Positions 5,410 to 11,559 of a stretch of 24,446 bases of DNA are shown here, piece after piece. How positions within the stretch are numbered: position 1 is the stretch's first letter; each line of letters starts with the position of its first letter. The position numbers and the translations under genes are program-made. The DNA lies in assembly GCA_025999115.1 (NCBI GenBank), contig BNWW01000035.1, positions 1 to 24,446 on the forward strand. Direction: 5' to 3'. The notes beneath the pieces were generated by a model that saw only the letters and a list, made by a program, of their open reading frames with translations, searched no databases and was not told the DNA's origin. This DNA is from Bacteroidia bacterium. Its GTDB lineage: Bacteria > Bacteroidota > Bacteroidia > Bacteroidales > Azobacteroidaceae.

Positions 5410-6330
5410 TTACGAAGGCATTATTCTATAATTCCATTCTTCATGAAAAGAGCTGCCCATCAGATTGACATTTTCCATTTCATCCTCATCAATTGTTATG
5501 CCTGTTTGATAATTTTCCATATCCAACTCACATTCCACTTCAAGTCCTTTTTCCGTCTTTGTAGAGCCAATCAGCTGAACAATAACTTCATAACTTATCA
5601 ATGGCTTTCCTCTCCAATTCTTTGAGATGTAAGAAAACAAACGGTGTTCTATTTTATTCCACTTGCTGGTTCCCGGCGGAAAATGAACGACCTCTATCTC
5701 CATTCCTGTTTCATCCGCAAATTTTTGCAGTTCGCGCTTCCACAGTTTCCCTTTGCTGCTATTGCTTCCGCCGCCATCTGCGGTTATCAGCAGTGAATTG
5801 GCATTGTTGTGGTAATAAATACCCATTTTGTACCACCAGTTTCTTATGCTCTGAACAGCAAATTCTGCCGTATCTTTTGTGATGCCCACATTGACCCAAC
5901 CTTTATTCTGTGCGATGTCATAGATTCCATAAGGTATTGCAATACCCTCGGCATCAGTCAGAAAATCGTATGCGTTTACTTCAACAGGCGTATTTTTACT
6001 TTGCCATTCTACACCGCCATTCTTGAAGTTGCCTATCAATTCCCGCTTTTTGGCATCTACTGATATAACCGGTTGTTCCTCTGACATATAGTCTTTTACC
6101 TTGCGGCTTATAAATTCAAACTGGGCATCTCTGTCCGCATGTCCTCTGCCTTCAAAAGTCTTTCTGTTGGCTTGCAAACTAAAACCGTTGGCTTTCAATG
6201 ATTCTCCTATTACCCTGTGACTTACATCTATCCCTCGCGCTTCTAAAGCCAAATAGATTCGCTTTTGATGCTCATCCAAATAAGGCAAGAATGCCTTGAT
6301 CTTTTCTATTGTATCTTTTATTGCTTCCAT
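5410..6330 (-). pseudogene. ISAzo13-family DDE transposase with an in-frame N-terminal-region deletion
   Basis: 306 codons. The C-terminal ~275 residues are a well-kept ISAzo13 (Rhodopirellula-type DDE) catalytic domain. It contains SLQANRKTFEG and HADRDAQF, VDAKKRELIGNF with D92, ITADGGGSNSSKGKLWKREL with D185, PPGTSKWNKIEHRLFS with E228, and NWRGKPLISYEV. The D92/D185/E228 triad is therefore present. The first ~30 residues (TIEKIKAFLPYLDEHQKRIY) match the extreme N terminus of the family. They are joined at residues ~30-34 directly to the VSHRVIGESLKANGF helix, although in full-length members (about 400 aa) the helix-turn-helix, basic linker and roughly 100 residues come between. The DNA-binding part is thus lost without breaking the frame. 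Probably inactive by itself. Confidence 0.8.
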
Positions 6331-7240: not shown

Positions 7241-9766
7241 ATGAACAAACTACCGGTAATATTTCTTTTCCTTGCTTTGGCGGAACTCGTTTTTGCTTCC
7301 GGGCGGCCGGATGATTCCAATTATGGCTTGATGGTTCAAGCGATGCCGTCGCCGGATGCGCAGAAAACAAGTTTGATTCTGGAAAATAATTCTCCGGTTG
7401 TATTGGGAAAAGAAACAAGCGTTTCGTTCCAAATGTTGGTTCGAGATGAGTATATGTTCGGTTTGGTCGTTCGAATGGTAACCAACCAAAACGAAAATAT
7501 TGATTTGATGCTGACCGTTACCGAAACATTTCGTCATCCGATATTGGTTATCAACGAATTTGCGCACGCCGTCCGGGAAGCGATTGTGGCGGACGAATGG
7601 ATTCCTGTAGAGATTACTTTTAATAAGGGAACGAATGAAATTATTCTTGATTACGCCGGCCGGAGATTAAATATATCGCATGATTTGAGCCGTACTTCCG
7701 ATGTTAGAATTTCTTTCGGAACCTGTTCGTTCAAATCGTTTGAATCCACCGATATTGCTTCGGTCAATATCCGGGATGTAAAAATTTTCCAAGACGGCGC
7801 ATTGAAACGCTATTGGAAATTAAAAGAACACCGGCAAAACATCGTATTGGATTCGGTGGCGCAAACGGCAGCCGTAGCAACTAATCCTTTGTGGCTCATA
7901 GATATTCATTCCACTTGGAAGAAAATTTATTCCGGCGAACTGCCGTTTAATACCCAAATCACATTGGATAATCAAGGGATATTCTACCTTGTTTCTCCCG
8001 ATTCGCGCAATATCCGGGTGTTTGATACGAAAAGTGGAAATGAGCGGCAAATTCATCCCCGGAACGGATTTATCGTATCCACAAGCCCCAATACCCTTTT
8101 CTACGATTCCGACAACCGGCAATTGGTCAGCTACAATCTGCGCGACAATTCGTCGTCGCGTTATTCGTTCGAGGCCAACGAGTGGAGTTCGCCGTCAGGT
8201 TCGCCAACCGACCCGTTTCTCAACAATTCCGCCGTCTATCATTCATCCGATAAAATCTTGTATTCTTTCGGCGGATACGAATATTATAAATACAGCCACA
8301 GTCTGATAAAAATGAATTTGGCCACCGGTGAACAAAAACGCACGGATTTAATGGAAATCGCCCCTCGTTTCTCGGCCTCTACCGCGATTGTGGGCAATAC
8401 AATATATATTTTCGGCGGTCGCGGAAGTAAAACCGGCAAACAGGAAATCGCCCCGCACAATTATTACGACTTTTATTCGGTCGATTTACTGATGGGGCAA
8501 ACGGTCGGTCTGTGGACGATGGATTCGATTGCCGGCGATTTTTTGCCGGGCGAAAACATGATATTTGATGCAGAACGCAATTGTTTTTATCTGTTTACCA
8601 CCCACAACGGCGGTTGCTTGATGAAAATCGAGCCTAACCGGAAAGGATTTGAAACGATGTCGTTCCCGATAGGTGAAAATATTGACGCGCTTTATTTATA
8701 TACGAATTTGTATTACGATTTATCGCAACAAAAATTATTTGCGTTGATTTATCAACAGAAAACCAAAGATCAAACGAATGTTTCCATCTATTCCTTGGAT
8801 TATCCGCCGGTTTCCATTCAAAGTTTAAATCAAGATTTGCCGCAAACAATTGAAAATCATTCTAAATGGTGGCTGATTCTAATTTTGATAGCGGGAATTG
8901 CAATTGCCATGCTTCTATACATAATAAGGAGTAAGAAAACAAAAAAGCCGGCGAACGGCAAAAAACCGGAACCGGTTGCTCCGAAAACGGAAGAACCCGT
9001 CCAAGCCCCCGAAACGCAATATTACGATTTCTCCAAGCGTTCGATTTGCCTTCTGAAACGGTTCAATGTGATTGATAAGGAGGGAAATAACATTACCGAA
9101 CAATTTTCGCCGACCTTAAAAAATCTGCTGATTCTTTTAATACTCGGTTCCGAGAAAGACGACAAAGGCGTTTTCGGCAATAAAATGATTCAATTGCTTT
9201 GGCCGGACAAAACCGAAGAATCGGCGAAAAACTCGCTTTATGTCTATTTGAGTAAATTGCGTTCCCTGCTCGAAAAAACGGGCGATACGGAAATCATCAA
9301 TAAAAACGGATTTTGGTCGTTTCGTTCCGGCAACAACGTGTTATGTGATTACACTGAAGCCATGCGTTTATTTACTTCCCTGAAAATCAATCATTTCAAA
9401 GATAACGAGCCAACCAATCGCTTGCTCGAATTGCTGTTGCGCGGCGTTTTGTTACCCAACACCGAAATTGATTGGGTGGATAATTACAAAAGCGATTTTT
9501 CAAACCTGACCATCGACGTTCTGACCAAATTGGCGCATGAAGACGACCGCATGAGCAACGAATTACGCCTCAAAATAGCCGGTACGCTACTTCTCCACGA
9601 TGTGATCAACGAAGACGGCTTGTATATCAAATGTTCGATTCTTTTCAATTCGGGTAAAAAGGGAATTGCCAAAACCGTTTACGATAATTTCTGCAAGGAA
9701 TACAAAAATTTGCTCGGAGTTCAATACAAATATTCTTTAACCGACGTGTTGAGTAATAAAAAATAA
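7241..9766 (+). CDS. Membrane-spanning transcriptional regulator: LamG-like and kelch-like ectodomain, one TM helix, SARP-type DNA-binding domain
   Basis: 841 residues. A signal peptide (NKLPVIFLFLALAELVFASG) leads to a jelly-roll/LamG-like region at ~25-200 that ends in VNIRDVKIFQDG and YWKLKEH. A beta-propeller-like region follows at ~235-530. It contains two kelch-type strands, YSFGGYEYY (GG at 344-345) and IYIFGGRG (from about 388). One strong transmembrane helix starts at W543 (WWLILILIAGIAIAMLLYII) and is followed by RSKKTKK, so the C-terminal part is cytoplasmic. A Pro/Glu linker (~565-595) leads to a winged-helix domain of the SARP/BTAD type at ~600-690. Its recognition helix, LLWPDKTEESAKNSL, continues into YVYLSKLRSLLEK; W654 is the typical LWPD Trp. 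The rest (~700-841) is helical and BTAD-like. There is no histidine kinase or receiver domain. This predicts a one-component regulator that reads an extracytoplasmic ligand and binds DNA from the membrane. The domain calls are from motifs; the signal is unknown. Confidence 0.8.
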   Translation: MNKLPVIFLFLALAELVFASGRPDDSNYGLMVQAMPSPDAQKTSLILENNSPVVLGKETSVSFQMLVRDEYMFGLVVRMVTNQNENIDLMLTVTETFRHPILVINEFAHAVREAIVADEWIPVEITFNKGTNEIILDYAGRRLNISHDLSRTSDVRISFGTCSFKSFESTDIASVNIRDVKIFQDGALKRYWKLKEHRQNIVLDSVAQTAAVATNPLWLIDIHSTWKKIYSGELPFNTQITLDNQGIFYLVSPDSRNIRVFDTKSGNERQIHPRNGFIVSTSPNTLFYDSDNRQLVSYNLRDNSSSRYSFEANEWSSPSGSPTDPFLNNSAVYHSSDKILYSFGGYEYYKYSHSLIKMNLATGEQKRTDLMEIAPRFSASTAIVGNTIYIFGGRGSKTGKQEIAPHNYYDFYSVDLLMGQTVGLWTMDSIAGDFLPGENMIFDAERNCFYLFTTHNGGCLMKIEPNRKGFETMSFPIGENIDALYLYTNLYYDLSQQKLFALIYQQKTKDQTNVSIYSLDYPPVSIQSLNQDLPQTIENHSKWWLILILIAGIAIAMLLYIIRSKKTKKPANGKKPEPVAPKTEEPVQAPETQYYDFSKRSICLLKRFNVIDKEGNNITEQFSPTLKNLLILLILGSEKDDKGVFGNKMIQLLWPDKTEESAKNSLYVYLSKLRSLLEKTGDTEIINKNGFWSFRSGNNVLCDYTEAMRLFTSLKINHFKDNEPTNRLLELLLRGVLLPNTEIDWVDNYKSDFSNLTIDVLTKLAHEDDRMSNELRLKIAGTLLLHDVINEDGLYIKCSILFNSGKKGIAKTVYDNFCKEYKNLLGVQYKYSLTDVLSNKK

Positions 9767-9782
9767 GTTGTAATATTTCAAC

Positions 9783-9843
9783 CACAGAGGATGCGGAGTG
9801 CACGGAGTTTAGTAATTTTAAAAATTTCTCTGCGTTTTCTGTG
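9783..9843. repeat. 16-position imperfect hairpin downstream of the regulator gene
   Basis: CACAGAGGATGCGGAG (9783-9798) and CTCTGCGTTTTCTGTG (9828-9843) can pair at all 16 positions in the plus-strand RNA if four G-U pairs are allowed, with a 29-nt loop. On the opposite strand the same four positions become A-C mismatches, so the structure favours plus-strand RNA. It resembles short dispersed intergenic repeats with CACAGAG arms and may serve as a terminator or mRNA 3' end for the regulator. The rest of this 183-nt gap is AT-rich with no other clear feature. Confidence 0.4.
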
Positions 9844-9949
9844 ATTAAATACTGTATTTTAAGGTCTGCTTTAATATTATTTTTAGGTTAGCTTTAATAG
9901 GCAAGTATTTACTTTGCACCTATTAATTTTAATTCTAAAAAATATCAAC

Positions 9950-11431
9950 ATGAAACACGTATTTCTTACATTTTTAGCAGTTTCGTTTGCTTTGAATCTG
10001 ATGGCAGACGATATTACATTGGATAGAATCGATTGGGTCGCCACCGATTGCGGCGACGAAACTTGGGATTTGCTTAACCTGATGGACGGAAACACCGGCA
10101 CCGAATGGCGCGCCGCACCGCAAAAAGCCGGTCAATGGTTGGTGGTAGATATGCAATCGCCGCAAACTTTCAATCAAATTATGTTGGATCAAACCGATAG
10201 TTGGGGCGATTATCCGCGCAGCATTGCCGTTTTTGTTTCCAATGACGGGAATGACTGGGGAAATGCCGTATTTGTAGGCGGTGGTTCCGATGCCGCGGCA
10301 ACTATCATCAATCTGGAAGACCAAACGGCGCAGTACATAAAATTTGAAGTGCTTACCAATTGCGAGATGTGGTGGAAAATCAAAGAACTGAACGTCCGGT
10401 TAATCGACGATAAAATATTGTGGAAACAATGGACGGCCGCAACGATCTATCAAAACGGGATTACTTGGAACGAAACAAAAAATATGTTCGACGGCAATCC
10501 CGACAGCCGTTGGAATACGAGCAAGCAACGTCCCGGTCAATGGGTCATTGTAGATATGAAGGAAGCGCAAACCTTCAATCAAATCCAACTTTTTCAAAAC
10601 GGCGGCGATTATCCGCGCGGATATGAAGTGTATGTTTCCGAAGATGCTTCCGATTGGGGCGACGCTATTGCAGTGGGCGCCGGAAGAGATTTTGGCGGTA
10701 CAGATCCTTTCACATTCATCAACTTGGCGGATACACAACAAAAACGCTTTGTAAAAGTGGTGCAAACATTCGACAGCGGCGATAACGATATGTATTGGAG
10801 TATCAATGAGTTTTCGGTCAATTTAGTTACGCCCGGCGATTACCGTTTCGGATGGACGCTTTCGGTATTTCAACAAGCCGGCGATGGTGATGCGGCGTTT
10901 CAGGCTTTGGACAATAATCCGGATAGCCGTTGGGGTTCGGGAACTGTACAAGCGCCCGGTCAGTGGATTATTTTAGACATGAAAAAGATGCAGTCATTCA
11001 ATAAAATCATTTTGAATCAGCCGGCCGGCGACTATCCGCGGGGTTACAGCATTTATCTTTCCGGCGACCGGCTTGCTAACGACGATACAAATTGGGGCGA
11101 AGCCGTTTATACCGGCGCACAATCGTCGGATATTGCAGAACTTACGATTGATTTGGGAGAAGTCAAATCTGCTCGCTGCATCAAAATAGAACAGACCGGA
11201 ATTTCCGGCGGATGGTGGTGTATCAACGAAATCCATGTCAGCAATGTAGTTACCGGTTTGCATCTTGTTTCCATTGACGGCCCGATAAAAGCAATTCATT
11301 ATTACAATCTGCAAGGGGTGGAGATCCCGGTAGAGACGGGGCATGCCCCGTCTCTACATAACGGCGTTTTCATCCAGAAAACGATTTATGAATCGGGTGC
11401 GGTAAGCGTTAGCAAAATCATTGGGAAATAA
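9950..11431 (+). CDS. Secreted protein with three discoidin (F5/8 type C) domains and a T9SS-like C-terminal tail
   Basis: I chose the ATG at 9950 over a TTG at 9914 because it gives a clean signal peptide (MKHVFLTFLAVSFALNLMAD) and lies after an A-rich stretch; the product is 493 residues. Three tandem discoidin-type repeats follow, each with the core D-[GN]-N-x-D-[ST]-[RE]-W, PGQW-[IV]-hh-DM, Q-[TS]-FN-x-I, and GDYPR-[GS]-Y/I-x-V/I-Y/F-[VL]-S, spanning about residues 20-155, 160-290 and 290-425. Discoidin domains usually bind carbohydrates or protein surfaces. The C-terminal ~60 residues (AIHYYNLQGVEIP, then NGVFIQKTIYESG to KIIGK) resemble a type A T9SS sorting tail, interrupted by a palindrome-encoded insert (VETGHAPSLH). 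No catalytic domain is seen, so the role is probably binding. It lies 183 nt after the regulator on the same strand, possibly one of its targets. Confidence 0.82.
   Translation: MKHVFLTFLAVSFALNLMADDITLDRIDWVATDCGDETWDLLNLMDGNTGTEWRAAPQKAGQWLVVDMQSPQTFNQIMLDQTDSWGDYPRSIAVFVSNDGNDWGNAVFVGGGSDAAATIINLEDQTAQYIKFEVLTNCEMWWKIKELNVRLIDDKILWKQWTAATIYQNGITWNETKNMFDGNPDSRWNTSKQRPGQWVIVDMKEAQTFNQIQLFQNGGDYPRGYEVYVSEDASDWGDAIAVGAGRDFGGTDPFTFINLADTQQKRFVKVVQTFDSGDNDMYWSINEFSVNLVTPGDYRFGWTLSVFQQAGDGDAAFQALDNNPDSRWGSGTVQAPGQWIILDMKKMQSFNKIILNQPAGDYPRGYSIYLSGDRLANDDTNWGEAVYTGAQSSDIAELTIDLGEVKSARCIKIEQTGISGGWWCINEIHVSNVVTGLHLVSIDGPIKAIHYYNLQGVEIPVETGHAPSLHNGVFIQKTIYESGAVSVSKIIGK
11330..11357. repeat. 28-nt perfect palindrome inside the discoidin gene
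   Basis: GTAGAGACGGGGCA is followed directly by its exact reverse complement, TGCCCCGTCTCTAC, making a gap-free 28-nt palindrome. It is read in frame as V-E-T-G-H-A-P-S-L-H and falls between the NLQGVEIP and NGVFIQKT strands of the sorting-like tail. GTAGAGACG/CGTCTCTAC-ended palindromes look like mobile short repeats of the REP/MITE type. I know of no function for this copy. Confidence 0.8.
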
Positions 11432-11464
11432 TCGATCCTTATTAACCTCCCAACTTTTTTTGAT

Positions 11465-11499
11465 TAGCGAGAGATTTTTTTAATGAAAATTTCTCGCTA
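11465..11499. terminator. Hairpin between the discoidin and barrel genes
   Basis: TAGCGAGAGATTTT (11465-11478) and AAAATTTCTCGCTA (11486-11499) form a 14-position stem with one G-U pair and a 7-nt loop, 33 nt after the discoidin stop. The downstream T tract is short (ACTTTTAAA), so termination may be partial. A TACTTTTA box at 11500-11507, close to the -7 consensus, could start transcription of the next gene. Confidence 0.55.
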
Positions 11500-11559
11500 T
11501 ACTTTTAAACTTTCCCCGTTTTCAATTGTCATTATTTCCGACATAATTTTTTCAACAAC

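Follow-up and report, generated by a model that had tools for sequence, protein, structure and literature searches.

A predicted membrane-anchored SARP-type regulator family in Bacteroidota and its probable TTAA-repeat operator

Hybrid two-component systems, SusR and sigma/anti-sigma pairs are the known routes of glycan sensing in Bacteroidota. The hybrid two-component systems of Bacteroides polysaccharide utilization loci (PULs) have periplasmic beta propellers, a transmembrane (TM) segment and a C-terminal cytoplasmic DNA-binding domain, and SusR is a membrane-spanning PUL regulator. ToxR and CadC carry their DNA-binding domain at the N-terminus. In Streptomyces, SARPs are antibiotic regulators, and a mark of the family is activation through contacts with sigma region 4 and alpha CTD; AfsR and EmbR are soluble. 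One-component transmembrane transcription regulators (TTRs) are described as a large class that is enriched in Bacteroidota (PMC10269533). Here we analyzed a 24,446-nucleotide stretch from a Bacteroidia bacterium (contig BNWW01000035.1 of assembly GCA_025999115.1; hereafter the window), in which a gene at 7241..9766 encodes a protein predicted to join a laminin-G-like (LamG) domain, a kelch propeller, a TM helix and a SARP-type DNA-binding domain. We think it likely that this protein is a single-pass TTR of new architecture, whose SARP domain would act on arrays of TTAA repeats to activate a PUL or, in this window, a discoidin gene.

The gene is one intact frame with full-length homologues, and the order of parts is identical in 36 aligned proteins (the window protein and 35 of the 119 other homologues listed). 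The original prediction, made from this DNA alone, would have fallen had the protein been a fusion artefact not conserved in relatives; conservation is supported, as are its claims of a LamG plus kelch ectodomain, a single TM pass, and no kinase or receiver domain. The ectodomain is supported by a predicted LamG sandwich of the laminin G/concanavalin A-like type and by a propeller recognizable from both fold and kelch motifs; the TM helix appears both in the AlphaFold2 (AF2) model and in the Kyte-Doolittle profile. A disordered linker (residues 565-590; predicted local distance difference test score, pLDDT, under 50) separates this helix from the C-terminal SARP-like domain (residues 593-841). 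A single chain thus combines a DNA-binding domain, by predicted fold, with a TM segment, which by architecture places the protein among the TTRs. Histidine kinase and receiver domains were absent from its Pfam list and from the 25 of 35 Pfam families listed for 36 members, 1 of which gave a single weak match to Peptidase_M56 (E 0.019). For the regulator, NCBIfam returned no match above its cut-off.

Because a full-length fold search returned mostly propeller rows, the C-terminal part was folded alone. The resulting model has a pLDDT of 94. Its best PDB matches, ahead of the other chains among the matches listed, are to the SARP domains of Streptomyces coelicolor AfsR and Mycobacterium tuberculosis EmbR. 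The AfsR alignment covers model residues 6-249 of 249 and so takes in the two features that mark a SARP, an OmpR-type winged helix and, directly behind it, an all-helical BTA domain. This agrees with the SARP-type winged helix that had been proposed from the letters of the DNA, and it is solely this predicted fold that identifies the domain as a SARP. Profile searches of PDB sequences found, with the full alignment, kelch proteins and an unrelated regulator of G-protein signalling (E about 0.5) and, when run with the C-terminal alignment, no match of note (best E 0.043).

By predicted fold the window protein thus shares a family with AfsR and EmbR, but in these the SARP domain is followed by further domains towards the C-terminus (NOD-TPR, FHA; PMC10936776), whereas in the window protein the SARP domain is itself C-terminal, behind the TM helix and the LamG-kelch part, and the predicted DNA units are TTAA at 11/12 bp. 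Compared with ToxR and CadC the order is reversed, with a C-terminal DNA-binding domain that is a SARP with BTA. The hybrid two-component systems and the window family have in common a propeller, a TM segment, a C-terminal DNA-binding domain and a PUL context; in the window protein, however, no histidine kinase or receiver was found, and a SARP replaces the AraC-type helix-turn-helix. SusR, as it is generally described, resembles the family in being a membrane-spanning PUL regulator.

A candidate operator was identified in promoters of the family. The 61 loci found by scanning genomes all bear Bacteroidota titles, and in 40 of them the upstream neighbour of the regulator is divergent. From these 40 promoters we left out L017 (a near-duplicate of L042), L048 (for no good reason) and one gap shorter than 120 bp. 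In a gapped-word search of the remaining 37, ATTAA-N6-ATTAA topped the 5-mer list, with 25 of 37 promoters against 17 of 173 other intergenic stretches. TTAA recurred at 11 bp in 31 of the 37, at 12 bp in 21 and at 23 bp in 26. Triple arrays (TTAA at pitches of 12 and 11 bp, up to 1 mismatch of 12) occurred in 31/40 divergent promoters, 1/21 other regulator promoters and 1/103 control stretches of similar GC; 36/173 other intergenic stretches of the regulator loci had them as well, many beside CotH, glycoside hydrolase (GH) or DUF4988 genes. Equal pitches of 8, 9, 10, 13, 14 and 15 bp were found in 0-4 of 40 promoters, and (12,12) in 5.

The array has a fixed position relative to a second element. 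When the divergent gene's strand is read, TTTG lies 15, 26-27 or 38 bp after a TTAA in 22 of 27 cases, and a recount by eye placed one TTAA exactly 15 bp before TTTG in each of those 22; the longer distances correspond to further units, some of them degenerate. On the regulator strand no TTTG offset held in more than 2 of 20. We take TAnnTTTG to be the Bacteroides -7 element, so that an array ending 15 bp before its TTTG would cover the -33 region. The boxes of SARPs are described as 11-bp repeats that span the -35 region (PMC10936776, PMC10972967), and the predicted sites, direct repeats at about that pitch, have the same form and place. From sequence, the family's operator is probably an array of TTAA repeats spaced at 11/12 bp, the last of them 15 bp ahead of TTTG.

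We then scored a full model (three TTAA, N15, TTTG; mismatches out of 16). At ≤1 mismatch it matched 26/40 divergent regulator promoters, 15/30 paralog loci and 0/103 control intergenic stretches. The paralog loci were kept out of motif discovery and come from the same genomes as the discovery loci; in all operator tests related loci count at full weight. Triple arrays adjoin the regulator in 16/30 paralog loci, and at ten other spacings the full model matched only 2-6 of 30. The exact pattern was then searched for in 15 genomes picked for carrying a member (1-7 members each, identity down to 22%). It occurs at 35 sites in 12 of the 15, against one for the reversed pattern. A regulator, one of 47, is no more than 500 bp away from 8 sites, where 0.08 would be expected, and no more than 25 kb away from 19, where 1.1 would be expected. 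As several of the 35 sites, and of the 30 paralogs, are mutually orthologous, significance is overstated and the p values are too small.

One 46-bp sequence resembling a full operator is identical in three genomes (G010:C28:9415-9460, G011:C4:543350-543395, G013:C57:242350-242395). No regulator was found on those contigs, and the sequence is a possible target in trans.

The window itself holds a single full-model site with ≤2 mismatches; it has 1 mismatch and occupies 9871-9916, between the regulator and the gene that follows (Table 1). Among 2000 Markov versions of this intergenic stretch, a site at least as good came up 3 times. The original prediction had pointed to two intergenic stretches as target DNA: 9767-9949 gains support from this site, whereas 11432-11559 does not, there being no other site within 2 mismatches of 16 in the window. 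Since the sole site lies ahead of the discoidin gene, the predicted target here is the discoidin protein and not a PUL. This protein (gene start ATG at 9950) is probably secreted, judging by eye from the N-terminus. A relative of the discoidin gene follows the regulator in Candidatus Symbiothrix (locus L001) and lies one gene further on in locus L013. In both, five TTAA units were seen by eye just ahead of it, the last of which TTTG follows at a distance of exactly 15 bp, and the L013 site is an exact match in the genome-wide scan. A type IX secretion system (T9SS) sorting tail was detected above cut-off in the L013 relative and only below cut-off in that of L001; the window discoidin protein gave no match at E ≤ 0.01.

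Table 1. Features of the regulator, its predicted operator and its predicted target gene in the window
Feature	Position	Strand	Evidence
LamG-kelch-TM-SARP regulator, 841 aa	7241..9766	+	intact frame, full-length homologues, AF2 model
Signal peptide or N-terminal hydrophobic helix, residues 1-21	7241..7303	+	AF2 helix 4-19; Kyte-Doolittle 3-21
Laminin-G-like sandwich, residues about 28-215	7322..7885	+	
Kelch beta propeller, residues 223-525	7907..8815	+	
Transmembrane helix, residues 540-564	8858..8932	+	AF2 helix; Kyte-Doolittle 544-562, mean 2.91
OmpR-type winged helix of SARP domain (predicted), residues 601-696	9041..9328	+	AF2; Foldseek + VIA to AfsR, EmbR
Probable recognition helix, residues 659-678	9215..9274	+	AF2 helix limits
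Helical BTA-like domain, residues 703-837	9347..9751	+	AF2; AfsR/EmbR alignment spans domain
Predicted operator: TTAA at 9859, 9871, degenerate 9882/9883, 9894 (pitch 11-12)	9859..9897	+	family-wide motif
TTTG, 15 bp after last TTAA; predicted -7 promoter element of next gene	9913..9916	+	
Predicted target gene, three F5/8 type C (discoidin) domains	9950..11431	+	Pfam PF00754, 3 stretches, E 8.7e-46

Elsewhere the family often sits in PULs. Neighbouring proteins were clustered and one representative per large cluster was named by Pfam, giving SusC, SusD, DUF3823, DUF4988, GH99-like, GH43, GH2, GH3, GH95, GH31, GH92 and CotH; genes were called by our own longest-open-reading-frame rule, so the neighbours are rough. 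We compared 26 full-flank loci with 20 control stretches of 20 kb, taken at chosen, non-random round-number positions in four regulator-carrying genomes (G005, G011, G012, G013); these also supplied the 103 intergenic controls. Enriched at the loci were SusC (19/26 against 5/20), SusD (16/26 against 4/20), DUF3823 (13/26 against 1/20), GH43 (9/26 against 1/20) and, each with none in the controls, GH99-like proteins (16/26), GH2 (9/26), DUF4988 (8/26), GH95 (7/26) and GH31 (6/26), a comparison biased in the loci's favour because the neighbour families were built from them. GH3, GH92 and CotH showed no significant difference in this comparison. In a separate count of SusD, no more than 82 per genome were tallied. 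Over all 61 loci, SusC is present in 36, and the GH99-like protein, the most specific neighbour, in 37; its substrate may point to the ligand of the regulator. Two distant members (L091:8212-10728 and L089:4901-7458, one of them split in two frames) adjoin a gene that by eye resembles proS and other non-PUL genes; the family is therefore not tied to PULs everywhere.

Homologues numbered 196 at E ≤ 1e-3, from the 7994 candidates that shared most words, and 120 of the 196 were listed; those with a named organism are Bacteroidota. The 61 loci show that the family spans this phylum. The whole profile matched 20 of 395 genomes in a draw from the phylum (the centre included; 9 through short partial matches) and the C-terminal profile 4 of 295 in a draw from the class (the centre included; at most 9 candidates scored per genome). 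With so few matches the family is not universal. Under a strict rule for its placement, a TM segment lies just before the SARP domain in 81 of 87 regulators; in four of the remaining six the segment narrowly misses this placement, and in L019 and L049 none is seen at that point. Lys and Arg are richer after the TM segment than before it in 77 of the 81.

Individual relatives vary in layout. A 704-aa relative (L064:85-2199) has, by eye, two LamG-like domains, a TM segment and a SARP domain without a kelch part, so the ectodomain seems exchangeable. At L088:4848-8572 an 869-aa member is directly followed by a 271-aa SARP-like protein without an ectodomain, a possible pair of receptor and soluble partner. 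In two related metagenome-assembled genomes (L053:11600-11800, L059:11540-11760) runs of G or C break the gene shortly before the TM segment. Phase variation, with the product alternating between a single membrane protein and two parts, was considered and set aside, as assembly error could explain the split.

Several results weigh against a SARP-type TTR acting on TTAA arrays. Pfam BTAD matches are weak and found in 5 of the 56 rows of an alignment of the window protein with 55 of 59 qualifying loci (L017, L046, L049 and L058 left out). An N-terminal hydrophobic segment was seen in only 64/87 regulators, and further hydrophobic segments exceed the threshold in 25/87. Neither SusC nor SusD occurs in 6 of the 26 full-flank loci. 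Unequal pitches other than (12,11) also score, with (13,11) in 14/40 promoters and (14,12) in 8/40. A site with ≤1 mismatch is missing from 14/40 divergent promoters and 15/30 paralog loci. At ≤2 mismatches the 15-bp spacing is hardly distinct in the divergent promoters (32/40 against 16-31 at other spacings) and not distinct in the paralogs (18/30 against 9-18). Without TTTG, the three-TTAA pattern shows no enrichment over its reversed control (54 sites against 58 in 8 genomes), and for 16 of the 35 exact sites the nearest regulator found is over 25 kb away or on a different contig. One unit of the window's array is degenerate, and the predicted recognition helix carries L666 and Y667, R and N being constant at these positions in the other 55 of the 56 rows.

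The last two points could mean drift or loss of function in the window copy, leaving a relic of a PUL regulator. Next to it downstream lie the discoidin gene and an OMP_b-brl_3 gene rather than SusC/SusD, and an ISAzo13-type DDE transposase lies upstream (5410-6330, reverse strand; E 1.9e-120). L666 and Y667 are indeed a sign of drift or of altered specificity. We nevertheless consider a relic improbable: the frame is intact, the exact N15-TTTG spacing is kept, the kin L001 and L013 have five TTAA units, and an 86% identical protein (P0003), which also departs from R and N at 666/667, exists elsewhere.

We instead favour a working receptor-activator. The LamG and kelch modules would be exported to the periplasm and probably bind a glycan-derived or surface ligand. 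The TM helix would relay the ligand state to the cytoplasmic SARP domain, with ligand binding outside altering the pairing or spacing of SARP domains inside. SARP protomers may then sit side by side on the predicted TTAA repeats at 11/12-bp pitch over the -33 region and, by analogy with AfsR at afsS, aid RNA polymerase at the -7 element. The target would be a polysaccharide utilization operon in many relatives and the adjoining discoidin gene in the window. A tethered regulator would hold its promoter at the membrane, or be freed by proteolysis.

If regulated proteolysis released the SARP part after a signal, the soluble fragment would be the activator and the membrane only a store. The disordered linker could be cut; it is, however, poorly conserved, no protease gene appeared among 20 Pfam-named proteins (17 neighbour representatives and 3 window genes, most single neighbours being unnamed), and TTRs as a class are described as working from the membrane (PMC10269533), which makes release unlikely. 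We give similarly little credence to repression, in which the array, abutting the predicted core promoter, could block RNA polymerase over the -33 region. Repression or negative regulation is listed for a few SARPs (PMC10972967), but the geometry resembles that of AfsR, an activator whose box is described as overlapping the -35 element and from there bringing it into contact with sigma region 4 (PMC10936776). Least probable is that another factor sharing these loci binds the arrays while the SARP domain has other targets, since, despite the 16 sites remote from any regulator found, those within 500 bp far exceed expectation, the paralogs L106, L098 and L101 (22-26% identity to the window protein) keep the site, and the array has the SARP pitch.

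The original prediction that no such arrangement is known held in part: the LamG-kelch-TM-SARP order looks new, whereas the TTR class was already described (PMC10269533). Among the matches listed from the open-access literature, which takes in neither most subscription journals nor any bioRxiv preprint, no title or abstract opening mentioned a TM- or PUL-linked SARP, a LamG-kelch-TM-SARP chain or a TTAA operator. The architecture, operator and regulon look new, while TTRs and actinomycete SARPs were already known. We lean slightly towards the broader view that membrane-anchored SARPs are a separate class of PUL regulators with one operator code, and that the Symbiothrix-like member has been re-wired from glycan uptake to a discoidin protein. 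If so, the regulon of each member would be predictable from sequence, and a one-protein receptor-activator with a readable operator would be a further, simple route of glycan sensing. A short, defined DNA site would make the route of a membrane-bound activator to its promoter testable, and SARPs, so far tied to antibiotics in actinomycetes, would also control carbohydrate use in gut bacteria.
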